Virus record (IMG/VR): IMGVR_UViG_3300031784_000103
Span: 1 to 35,762 of that record
DNA from: a virus
Length of the DNA stretch: 35,762 bases
Direction: 5' to 3' (one strand)
Part shown: positions 18,611 through 25,228 of the stretch, one piece after another
How the letters are laid out: each line of letters opens with the position of its first letter
How positions within the stretch are numbered: the first letter of the stretch is position 1
Notes under the pieces: model-generated
Database searches by the model: none
Seen by the model: the letters and a program-made list of their open reading frames with translations, nothing else
What the model was told of the DNA's origin: nothing
Program-made: the position numbers and the translations under genes

Positions 18611-18696
18611 GCTATACCTTGGGGATACTGGCAATTTTACTGATAACATATGCACTTATAGTAACGGAGGATAAGTTTAACAATGGAGATAAATAG
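18607..18696 (+). CDS. 29-residue single-pass membrane peptide
   Basis: A GTG at 18607 overlaps the previous stop (GTGA) behind GAGGGCAA. Residues 3-19 are hydrophobic (Leu, Ile, Ala, Tyr), followed by an acidic/basic tail. It is a likely inner-membrane peptide, similar in plan to the peptides at 15994 and 26718. Its end overlaps the next gene by 14 bases. Confidence 0.5.
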   Translation: MSYTLGILAILLITYALIVTEDKFNNGDK

Positions 18697-18979
18697 AAGG
18701 ATCGAGTCTGCTAAGCGTAGCGCAGTAGGCTATCGCAACTATCGGAGGGCGAGGGATAGGGCGATGACGCGTCTATCCAATGCTTACCCTGAGACATACA
18801 AAGAACTGCTTGAACAGGAGAAAATTGTAGATGAACAGATGGGTAAGAAGTGGCTTGATATTGACGGCAGTACTGACCAGTATATGGATACTAACACCAG
18901 CTCATCACCTTCGGGTGGAGGAGAGGGCGACAAAGCCAGCTCCAGTGCAGACCAAAGCAACAATGGAGGAGAAGCGTGA
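18683..18979 (+). CDS. Small actinophage-type protein with Ser/Gly-rich tail, 98 aa
   Basis: Residues 1-60 are basic and helical with an Arg-Ala-Met-Thr-Arg-Leu and Pro-Glu-x-Tyr-x-x-Leu pattern seen in many actinophage proteins. Residues 65-98 are low-complexity Ser/Gly/Asp. The 5' GGAGG is 12 bases away. The tail overlaps the start of the transglycosylase frame, which may explain the low complexity. The TGA overlaps the next GTG (GTGA). Confidence 0.6.
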   Translation: MEINRRIESAKRSAVGYRNYRRARDRAMTRLSNAYPETYKELLEQEKIVDEQMGKKWLDIDGSTDQYMDTNTSSSPSGGGEGDKASSSADQSNNGGEA

Positions 18980-19250
18980 AAACAAAGCACTTGCGATTAG
19001 TTACTTACGAGCACTCGGTTACGATGGGCAACAGAGAAAGTGTGCCATCACCCTTTGGACCCGTGAGAGCAGGCTTGACCACCTCGCAGATAACCCAAGA
19101 TCAACGGCTTTCGGAATTGCTCAGATCCTTAGAGAGCGTAGTAGAAAACCTGAACTACAAATCCTTCACGCTATACGATATGTTGAACACCGCTATCGAG
19201 GAAATTTCTGCAGTGCTCTCAGGCACAGTGATCGAAGAGGATGGTACTGA
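18831..19250 (+). CDS. Lytic transglycosylase-like protein nested in other genes (139 aa)
   Basis: Residues 50-139 show the three marks of the SLT/goose-lysozyme-like fold: Glu79-Ser80 (catalytic Glu), Gly95-Ile-Ala-Gln98 and an Ala-x-x-Tyr region at 114-122, ending in His/Arg-rich sequence and Gly-Trp-Tyr. The ATG at 18831 has AGGAG 10 bases upstream and gives a hydrophobic anchor or signal at 7-22; an internal ATG at 18963 would give the bare domain but lacks a good ribosome binding site. The frame overlaps the 98-residue gene by 149 bases and the 92-residue gene by 275. It should cut peptidoglycan. Confidence 0.75.
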   Translation: MNRWVRSGLILTAVLTSIWILTPAHHLRVEERATKPAPVQTKATMEEKRENKALAISYLRALGYDGQQRKCAITLWTRESRLDHLADNPRSTAFGIAQILRERSRKPELQILHAIRYVEHRYRGNFCSALRHSDRRGWY

Positions 19251-19254
19251 ATGA
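18976..19254 (+). CDS. 92-residue gene lying over the transglycosylase frame
   Basis: A GTG at 18976 sits in a GTGA overlap behind GGAGGAG and the TGA overlaps the next ATG, exactly the seam design of this operon, so this frame is likely translated. Residues 1-40 are basic and beta-like; 45-85 form an acidic, leucine-rich helix. No family is recognised. It shares nearly all its DNA with the transglycosylase domain, which is an ancient fold, so this gene would be the newer, overprinted one. Confidence 0.5.
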   Translation: MKTKHLRLVTYEHSVTMGNRESVPSPFGPVRAGLTTSQITQDQRLSELLRSLESVVENLNYKSFTLYDMLNTAIEEISAVLSGTVIEEDGTE

Positions 19255-19739
19255 AGCTTATATTAGATCCAGCCTCATCTACGAGATCCTTTTACTTTAA
19301 TAAGAAGGATGATCGTGTTCTCTTTGGTGATATACGGGTAAAAGAATCTTACTTGCTAACCAATGGGCAGACTATCCATATAGAACCTGATGAGGTTATG
19401 GACTTTCGGGCTATACCTTACCCCGATGAAACGTTTAAGGCGGTAGTCTTTGACCCACCACATAGGATCAAGCTAACAACCGAGTCTGATTTTATTAAGA
19501 AGTATGGGGAATTAAATAAAGATACTTGGCGAGAAGATTTAGCTCAAGGGTTTGCTGAATGTTTTAGGGTTCTTAAGACTAATGGCACTCTCATATTTAA
19601 GTGGAGTGAAGTATCTATCAAGCTAAATGAAATATTAAAACTTACAGATCAGAAGCCAGTTCTTGGACATCCTTCGGGTAAGCGTATGGGAACACACTGG
19701 GTACTCTTTATTAAAACTGAAGAAGATATGCTACAATAA
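19251..19739 (+). CDS. Phage class I SAM methyltransferase with DPPH motif
   Basis: The 162-residue protein has Asp-Pro-Pro-His at 68-71 in the place of the DPPY/NPPY of amino-methyltransferases, then a Trp-x-Glu-Asp-Leu-x-x-Gly-Phe helix, a Leu-Lys-x-x-Gly-Thr-Leu-Ile-Phe-Lys-Trp strand and a Gly-His-x-Ser-Gly-Lys end. I know this compact family from phages of Gram-positive bacteria; its substrate is not settled, with DNA most likely. It starts at the stop of the gene before and is the last gene of the rightward operon. Confidence 0.8.
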   Translation: MKLILDPASSTRSFYFNKKDDRVLFGDIRVKESYLLTNGQTIHIEPDEVMDFRAIPYPDETFKAVVFDPPHRIKLTTESDFIKKYGELNKDTWREDLAQGFAECFRVLKTNGTLIFKWSEVSIKLNEILKLTDQKPVLGHPSGKRMGTHWVLFIKTEEDMLQ

Positions 19740-24128: not shown

Positions 24129-24969
24129 TGTAAGCTCCTCCATAACCATAACGTTGATCCTTGGCGAACATACTACCCCAGACTGGATCATCTGTGATCT
24201 GACAAGCTGCATAGTTTACGTAAAGGTTTGCATACCGTGAAGCGTCTGCTGTGTGTGGCCCAAAGCGGTTCTTCACGGCAGCAACCTTTAAGATCGCTTG
24301 GTTCGGATCATATCCAAGCGTGAGTATGAGGCTGGGCAACTGGCTAACCTTACCGTGAATGGCACGTCTTGCTGGTGGGTTAGTGGGATTACCGTACTCC
24401 GATTGTTCTGACACGTGGTGTAGTACTAAGACACAAGCCTCAGTCTTACGAGCCATATCGTGTAGTTCCATCATAATTGCACGCAGACCTGCCCATTCAT
24501 TATCAGTTTCTGCTGCAACGTTCATTAAATTATCTATGACAATTAACTCTGGAGCTATGCCATAGAGTTCCACATAAGCCTTGATCTCTAGTTCAATATC
24601 ATCTAGTGATGGGCTTGAATCGAATACCCACTTTATGTGACCTAAGTTCACAAAGTGGCTATCGTAATGGTGTGTGTTTTGTGCAAGGTTAGACTCAACA
24701 GATAACTGTTGGTGTCCTGATAGGTGAGAGGCAGCTCTCATCATCACAGTAGTAGTGTCTGTATCTGCTGAAAAGAATAAAGTAGGAACCTTCGACTTGA
24801 TCGCATAGACCAAAGCGAACATAGATTTACCGGCGTTAGGTGCTGCTGCAACCATACAGACTTGCCCACGTCGGAACTTGATCTGCTCACTGGCTAGTGG
24901 CTTCCACACGTCTGGTAGTGGTGTTGCTTTGGTAAGCACCCCACCCCAAGCACGTGATAGATCAAGCAC
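24109..24969 (-). CDS. RecA/DnaB-like ATPase (replicative helicase candidate)
   Basis: Walker A (Ala-Pro-Asn-Ala-Gly-Lys-Ser, 43-49) and Walker B (Leu-Ile-Val-Ile-Asp, 142-146) with a downstream Leu-His-His motif (about 180-182) place it in the RecA/RepA/DnaB superfamily. At 286 residues it lacks the N-terminal primase-binding domain of DnaB and is close to phage RepA-like helicases. A GTG start has GGAGG 6 bases upstream. Next to the primase genes it should unwind DNA at the fork, with the host polymerase doing synthesis. Confidence 0.78.
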   Translation of the reverse strand: MLDLSRAWGGVLTKATPLPDVWKPLASEQIKFRRGQVCMVAAAPNAGKSMFALVYAIKSKVPTLFFSADTDTTTVMMRAASHLSGHQQLSVESNLAQNTHHYDSHFVNLGHIKWVFDSSPSLDDIELEIKAYVELYGIAPELIVIDNLMNVAAETDNEWAGLRAIMMELHDMARKTEACVLVLHHVSEQSEYGNPTNPPARRAIHGKVSQLPSLILTLGYDPNQAILKVAAVKNRFGPHTADASRYANLYVNYAACQITDDPVWGSMFAKDQRYGYGGAYNVEAAN

Positions 24970-25228
24970 TCTTCTCCTCCTTCAATGTAATTCTTCTCTG
25001 CCTACGAATAACCCTTCGATTACTCTCAGTCAATCCACCCCAGATACCGAAGCCTTCGTTCTGTATTCCCCACTCAGCACATTCTGCTTGGTGAGTACAC
25101 TGCCTACAGATTGATTGAGCCATAAGCATTTCGGTACTGTTGCTAATCCCGCCTTCCCTTTCAGGAAACCAGAAGTCGCCCCCCACACTTGCACACAATG
25201 GAGCCTCGTACTTAGCAGGCTCTCTCAT
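24962..25228 (-). CDS. WhiB-family Fe-S transcription factor (88 aa)
   Basis: Four cysteines at 12, 41, 44 and 50 (C-x28-C-x2-C-x5-C) and the Gly-Phe-Gly-Ile-Trp-Gly-Gly turn at 59-65 are diagnostic for WhiB-like proteins, which carry a 4Fe-4S cluster and bind the main sigma factor of actinobacteria. The C-terminal Arg-rich helix would contact DNA. Phage WhiB proteins (for example WhiBTM4) can down-regulate host WhiB genes; whether this one does is unknown. WhiB proteins occur only in actinobacteria and their phages, so this is the best host marker in the window. Confidence 0.92.
   Translation of the reverse strand: MREPAKYEAPLCASVGGDFWFPEREGGISNSTEMLMAQSICRQCTHQAECAEWGIQNEGFGIWGGLTESNRRVIRRQRRITLKEEKSA

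Follow-up and report, generated by a model that had tools for sequence, protein, structure and literature searches.

The plus-strand locus described here raises the question of whether the same bases of a phage genome are translated into more than one protein and, if so, which of the overlapping frames is the older. It lies in the window, i.e. the whole 35,762-nucleotide stretch of viral DNA that was analysed, where a frame for a transglycosylase-type protein (SLT) shares its DNA with other open frames. Based on the gene layout and on comparisons to related phages, we consider it highly probable that one of these frames, gene C, has been overprinted on SLT, and that a single mRNA would carry three nested forward-frame genes, A, SLT and C (Table 1).

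Table 1 Features of the overlapping locus, in window coordinates.
Feature	Positions	Strand	Description
GGAGG, likely ribosome-binding site of A	18666-18670	+	sequence
Gene A	18683-18979	+	98 aa, +2 frame of SLT; charged N-terminal half conserved and free of overlap, low-complexity tail over SLT
AGGAG, likely ribosome-binding site of SLT, within A frame	18816-18820	+	sequence
SLT	18831-19250	+	139 aa, ATG start; putative signal-anchored transglycosylase-type protein
GGAGGAG, likely ribosome-binding site of C, 4 nt before GTG	18965-18971	+	sequence
GTGA seam (A stop, C start), shared by all three frames	18976-18979	+	
Gene C	18976-19254	+	92 aa, GTG start, +1 frame of SLT
ATGA seam, C stop and methyltransferase start	19251-19254	+	abuts SLT stop TGA 19248-19250
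Methyltransferase-like gene	19251-19739	+	phrog_954 match; neighbour, not constant part of module

The original prediction, made from the sequence of the window, had described the 92-residue gene C over SLT, with stop-start seams at both of its ends and a GGAGGAG ahead of its start. Seams and motif are found as listed, and the overlap with C stands, but the description was incomplete, as A covers the remainder of SLT. The first 149 nt of SLT lie under gene A and the last 275 nt under gene C, in two other frames, and because A and C abut at the GTGA seam the enzyme frame is overlapped throughout. Ribosome-binding-like sites are located at plausible distances ahead of A, SLT and C, those of SLT and C inside the overlapping gene; the GGAGGAG of C is part of the Met-Glu-Glu-Lys codons in the SLT motif TKATMEEKREN. 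In SLT itself, a hydrophobic N-terminus at approximately residues 6-22 is followed by the catalytic Glu79, Gly95-Ile96-Ala97-Gln98 and a GWY end; all elements that the frame had been said to keep, including the Ala-x-x-Tyr part, are present.

Together with the methyltransferase-like gene, A, SLT and C form the end of the plus-strand cluster of the window. Between 17400 and 18980 on this strand, short genes, several with stop-start seams, are placed between two long minus-strand blocks, similar to the arrangement in Planktophila phage LanE43AprF5 (F5). The methyltransferase-like gene is absent beside SLT in most relatives and aligns to phrog_954 only from profile position 52 on, so that some 50 N-terminal residues may be missing from it. 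A WhiB-like protein is encoded away from SLT, at 24962-25228 on the minus strand, with about 40% identity to the SLT-adjacent WhiB of a relative.

Five IMG/VR scans with SLT- and C-based queries, combined with a phage collection, yielded 261 distinct SLT genes. As judged by profile, C is kept in the same frame in 190 of them, answering a check named in the original prediction, and 180 of the 190 also have A; L191 and L194 are doubtful among the C scorers, as they sit in the clade without A. The C holders extend to L112, with an SLT 52% identical to that of the window, and lower. Within the final 270 nt of SLT, no C-frame stop occurs in 187/190, while in the other three (L263, L314 and L338) C ends 17 nt ahead of the SLT end, leaving the last SLT codons free of overlap. 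Among the 261 homologues, no relative has C intact and SLT broken, one of the two cases named beforehand as counterevidence. The remaining 71 have neither A nor C and, apart from the distant outgroups L126, L127 and L208, form one clade, in which SLT is intact and usually preceded by a WhiB-like gene, A is missing, and the C frame has 3.75 stops on average and is open in 1/68. The second such case, SLT intact with stops in the C frame, thus does occur, yet in a separate clade that also lacks A, i.e. the outgroup or loss state that is expected under overprinting.

The clade without C includes Planktophila phage LanE43AprF5 (L125, OX376641), which has been cultivated (PMC10202952). Its terminase, portal, capsid, sigma factor, primase and helicase genes are syntenic with those of the window, which therefore probably derives from a phage of freshwater Nanopelagicales-type Actinobacteria. 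One scan of cellular genomes returned no closely related prophage copy; its only SLT was a distant one, from a MAG. Three relatives (L209, L210 and L211) combine a WhiB-like gene, SLT and C without A, intermediate between the F5-type and the window-type gene order, and C is hence independent of A.

Concerning the direction of overprinting, homologues of SLT are distributed across actinophages, including Streptomyces phages, far outside the group. Relatives of C were detected neither in 50,697 phage records nor, convincingly, among PHROGs (best E 0.012, single members), its profile matched PDB sequences in chance-level segments only, and every C recovered by the two C-based scans sits on an SLT gene, none being free-standing. 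This distribution supports SLT as the older frame and C as the overprint, in agreement with the earlier proposal that an old lysozyme-type gene had been overprinted.

The timing is less firmly placed. C may already have been present in the ancestor of the group and have been lost in the WhiB-type clade, a scenario under which overprinting holds equally. It would fit a quick tree with distant outgroups, in which the clade without C is nested, weakly (support about 80), among the C holders, as well as a WhiB-type subclade without A (L186, L190, L191, L194 and L197) that has 0-1 C-frame stops, as compared to about ten in the other forward frame, and in which L191 and L194 (the latter with E 3e-6) score with the C profile. 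The nearly or fully open frame of this subclade could be a relic, an early stage or chance. On the other hand, a tree grouping all C holders improves on the free quick tree by 18.8 log-units, and removal of the longest outgroup places the C holders on one side of a branch, with a support of only 42. On balance we regard an ancestral C with later loss as a possible, somewhat doubtful timing for the overprinting of SLT by C.

Is the C frame open merely because the SLT protein happens to permit it? Codon shuffling that preserves the SLT protein gives a probability of an open C frame of 0.007-0.06 for the window alone and 0.057 on average in the relatives. In 15/15 C-bearing lineages below 70% identity, a range in which synonymous sites are close to saturated, the frame is open, corresponding to approximately 10^-18.7 if the lineages are independent. 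A count of 58 C-frame stops on reconstructed ancestors was left unused: none of the tips in that set carries a stop at those places, and the count was judged an artefact of reconstructing each site by parsimony over long branches.

Selection on the C protein can be read from the SLT codons, as the third bases of SLT are the second bases of C. At conserved residues of the SLT catalytic region and at matched SLT identity, the fourfold-site mismatch in C bearers compared with the clade without C is 0.35 vs 0.65 at 50-60% identity, 0.28 vs 0.54 at 70-80% and 0.12 vs 0.31 at 90-98%. When each lineage contributes one row and the columns are resampled, the SLT core has 0.35 (0.24-0.49) against 0.63 (0.58-0.67) without C. 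Outside the overlap, A is near saturation (0.70, 0.59-0.78, per lineage; 0.71 in the lowest identity bin), while lower values, with wide intervals, are also obtained for the SLT N-terminus (0.48) and for the tail of A within the overlap (0.47). At SLT-silent sites, the ratio of C-changing to C-silent rate is 0.31-0.36 in C bearers and 0.83 in the clade without C; it is 1.7-1.9 for the other forward frame and 0.39-0.46 for reverse-strand frame 0, so that this ratio alone is not frame-specific, because the antisense frame shares the position structure of C.

A more specific signature emerges from the predicted coiled coil of C, the register of which was taken from the C sequence of the window before the relatives were tested. 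A T at the third base of an SLT codon places a hydrophobic residue in C, and at the heptad a/d positions of C this base is T in 105/165 cells from 15 lineages, compared to 13/88 without C (p 3e-14), with no difference at the other helix positions (p 0.57); the p-values assume independent lineages and are indicative only. The a/d register is the best of the seven, and at C residues 45, 48, 49, 52, 56 and 59 T is found in 14-15/15 lineages vs 0-3/8. The comparison of synonymous and nonsynonymous change, proposed at the outset as a check, thereby supports selection on the C protein, through both the approximate halving of fourfold mismatch and the coiled-coil-specific third bases.

Synonymous constraint by itself is, however, no proof of a protein, and with SLT clearly selected, it is conceivable that only SLT and A are translated and that the C frame is kept open and frozen by local codon bias in the SLT gene or by an element in the RNA. 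In the window sequence, the RNA of the overlap is no more stably folded than its shuffles (z +1.14), for which reason RNA structure was rejected as the source of the codon constraint there. Furthermore, the frozen third bases are T at the C heptad a/d positions and not elsewhere in the helix, and the SLT codons over the variable head of C are freer than elsewhere; codon constraint that tracks the coiled coil of C in this manner argues for a translated C. The four-nucleotide stop-start seam at the C start is, in addition, kept in 133/181 relatives, mostly with an SD-like site. An untranslated C is consequently very unlikely in our assessment. Instead, the halved fourfold mismatch and the heptad-core T, for which RNA folding offers no explanation, support protein-level selection in both frames; constraint is seen in SLT and C alike, and the C holders keep both open, as anticipated for two real genes.

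The reverse arrangement, with C as the real modern gene and SLT as a decaying remnant that C holds open, would be in line with the gene-like seams at both ends of C, but it is contradicted by the state of the enzyme frame. In 34 diverse members Glu79, Gly95, Ile96 and Gln98 are invariant, and Ser80 is nearly so; the hydrophobic N-terminal stretch is kept in 93% of SLT relatives; the ratio of SLT-changing to SLT-silent rate in the overlap is 0.14-0.50; and C has not been found without SLT. We consider a decaying SLT improbable in the extreme. The low rates and the persistence of motif and hydrophobic N-terminus rather support that SLT, too, is under selection. A frameshift fusion of A and SLT is not favoured either, since SLT has its own ATG in 178/181 relatives and an SD-like site ahead of it in 160/178.

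The identity of SLT is indicated by PHROG transglycosylase families matching its frame (E 1e-11 and 2e-8), next to an unnamed family (2e-13). Pfam SLT matches 16/34 relatives (E up to 0.1, best 2e-4) and gave no match for the SLT of the window. A structural model of SLT was predicted with a pLDDT of 87; Foldseek returned no match to it in the PDB and VIA-align weak hits only, with unlisted families possible, and because no solved match emerged the fold was left out as evidence. Motif and N-terminus are compatible with a putative signal-anchor transglycosylase that would be exported and cut peptidoglycan. Among the proteins scanned in the window and in F5, PHROG and Pfam recognised no other endolysin or holin, which lends weak support to SLT as a candidate lysis enzyme. 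The SLT relatives of Streptomyces phages are located near thyX or methylase genes and not beside annotated lysis genes.

For C, residues 1-40 are predicted to be disordered and residues 41-83 to form one long heptad helix, modelled with a pLDDT of 92-98 at residues 41-80. The disordered part is weakly conserved and sits over the least constrained codons of SLT. C lacks a hydrophobic segment (best 19-mer median 0.77) and is probably a soluble oligomer. Both C and A have charged residues at their start. Gene A is present in the same frame in 180 relatives, and the best 80 A matches listed all adjoin and overlap an SLT gene.

Taken together, we propose that the locus operates as follows. A would be translated first from the single mRNA in which A, SLT and C are nested in three forward frames, with SLT initiating inside A from its own ribosome-binding site. 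C would then start on the A stop at the GTGA, through coupled re-initiation assisted by the strong GGAGGAG. Such A-C coupling appears common but not essential, as 48/181 relatives lack the four-nucleotide seam; where examples of these were inspected, A in most cases terminates sooner, and C begins at an ATG of its own preceded by purine-rich sequence. At the C end, a four-nucleotide stop-start seam is found in 55/181 relatives. The product of SLT, the old gene, would use the signal anchor at its N-terminus for export and would cut peptidoglycan. C, the new gene and a +1-frame overprint above the SLT catalytic domain, would encode a soluble protein whose head is disordered and whose coiled coil self-associates, and protein-level selection would maintain it. 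The sequences directly show the frames, their seams, their conservation and the constraint on both SLT and C, including the third-base pattern of the coiled coil; that C is translated and oligomerises, that SLT is exported and active, and that the three functions are linked in any way is presumptive.

Overprinted same-strand overlapping genes are known from viruses (reviewed in PMC8227390), as are the embedded lysis genes of RNA phages (PMC7693330). As in those viral overprints, an old gene is here combined with a younger, restricted +1 orphan, with disorder in the new protein and mutual constraint on codons. In contrast to them, the present case concerns a tailed phage with a dsDNA genome of ordinary size, two tandem genes in two frames extend over the whole of the enzyme gene, C has a predicted ordered coiled coil, and hundreds of wild relatives as well as an overlap-free clade can be compared. 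The nested spanin genes Rz/Rz1 (PMC6139136) likewise place a small gene out of frame within a lysis-related gene of a tailed phage; however, neither a signal sequence nor a membrane segment is present in C, both A and C begin with charged residues, a combination that departs from the membrane anchor and lipoprotein signal of the Rz/Rz1 type, and the overlapped partner is a muralytic-type enzyme and not a spanin.

The actinophage transglycosylases of PHROG 35836 / 12661 (Streptomyces phages Endor1/2 and Muntaha) are SLT homologues with roughly 30-40% identity, and that of Muntaha is also near a DNA methylase, but the annotated genes there stand alone, neither A nor C being annotated across them. 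LanE43AprF5 (OX376641; PMC10202952), in turn, has a full-length, about 43% identical SLT with a hydrophobic N-terminus in a syntenic phage; unlike the window, it has an upstream WhiB-like gene, joined only through a short stop-start overlap; A is missing, and the C frame contains four stops. No earlier report of the SLT/A/C overlap was found in the open-access literature, which is not proof of absence. As far as sequences can tell, the locus is confirmed and well supported as an overprinted enzyme gene that is overlapped along its whole length. Overprinting is known in kind; the case is unusual in its extent, with two genes in tandem spanning the enzyme frame, and in the depth of comparison that it allows.

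In-depth documentation of overprints in tailed phages is rare, and here about 180 distinct relatives with the overlap can be set beside about 70 without it, one of them cultivated. This makes testable which codons are forced to change, what the overlap costs the enzyme in evolvability, and how a coiled coil can be born across the other frame of an alpha-helical domain. If annotation retains a single frame where two overlap, either the enzyme is overlooked or both C and the end of A are. More tentatively, C (with A) might serve the transglycosylase as its dedicated partner or as a timer, a role that we think unlikely; if true, the overlap hard-wires an enzyme and its control protein, such that neither could be lost or changed without the other.
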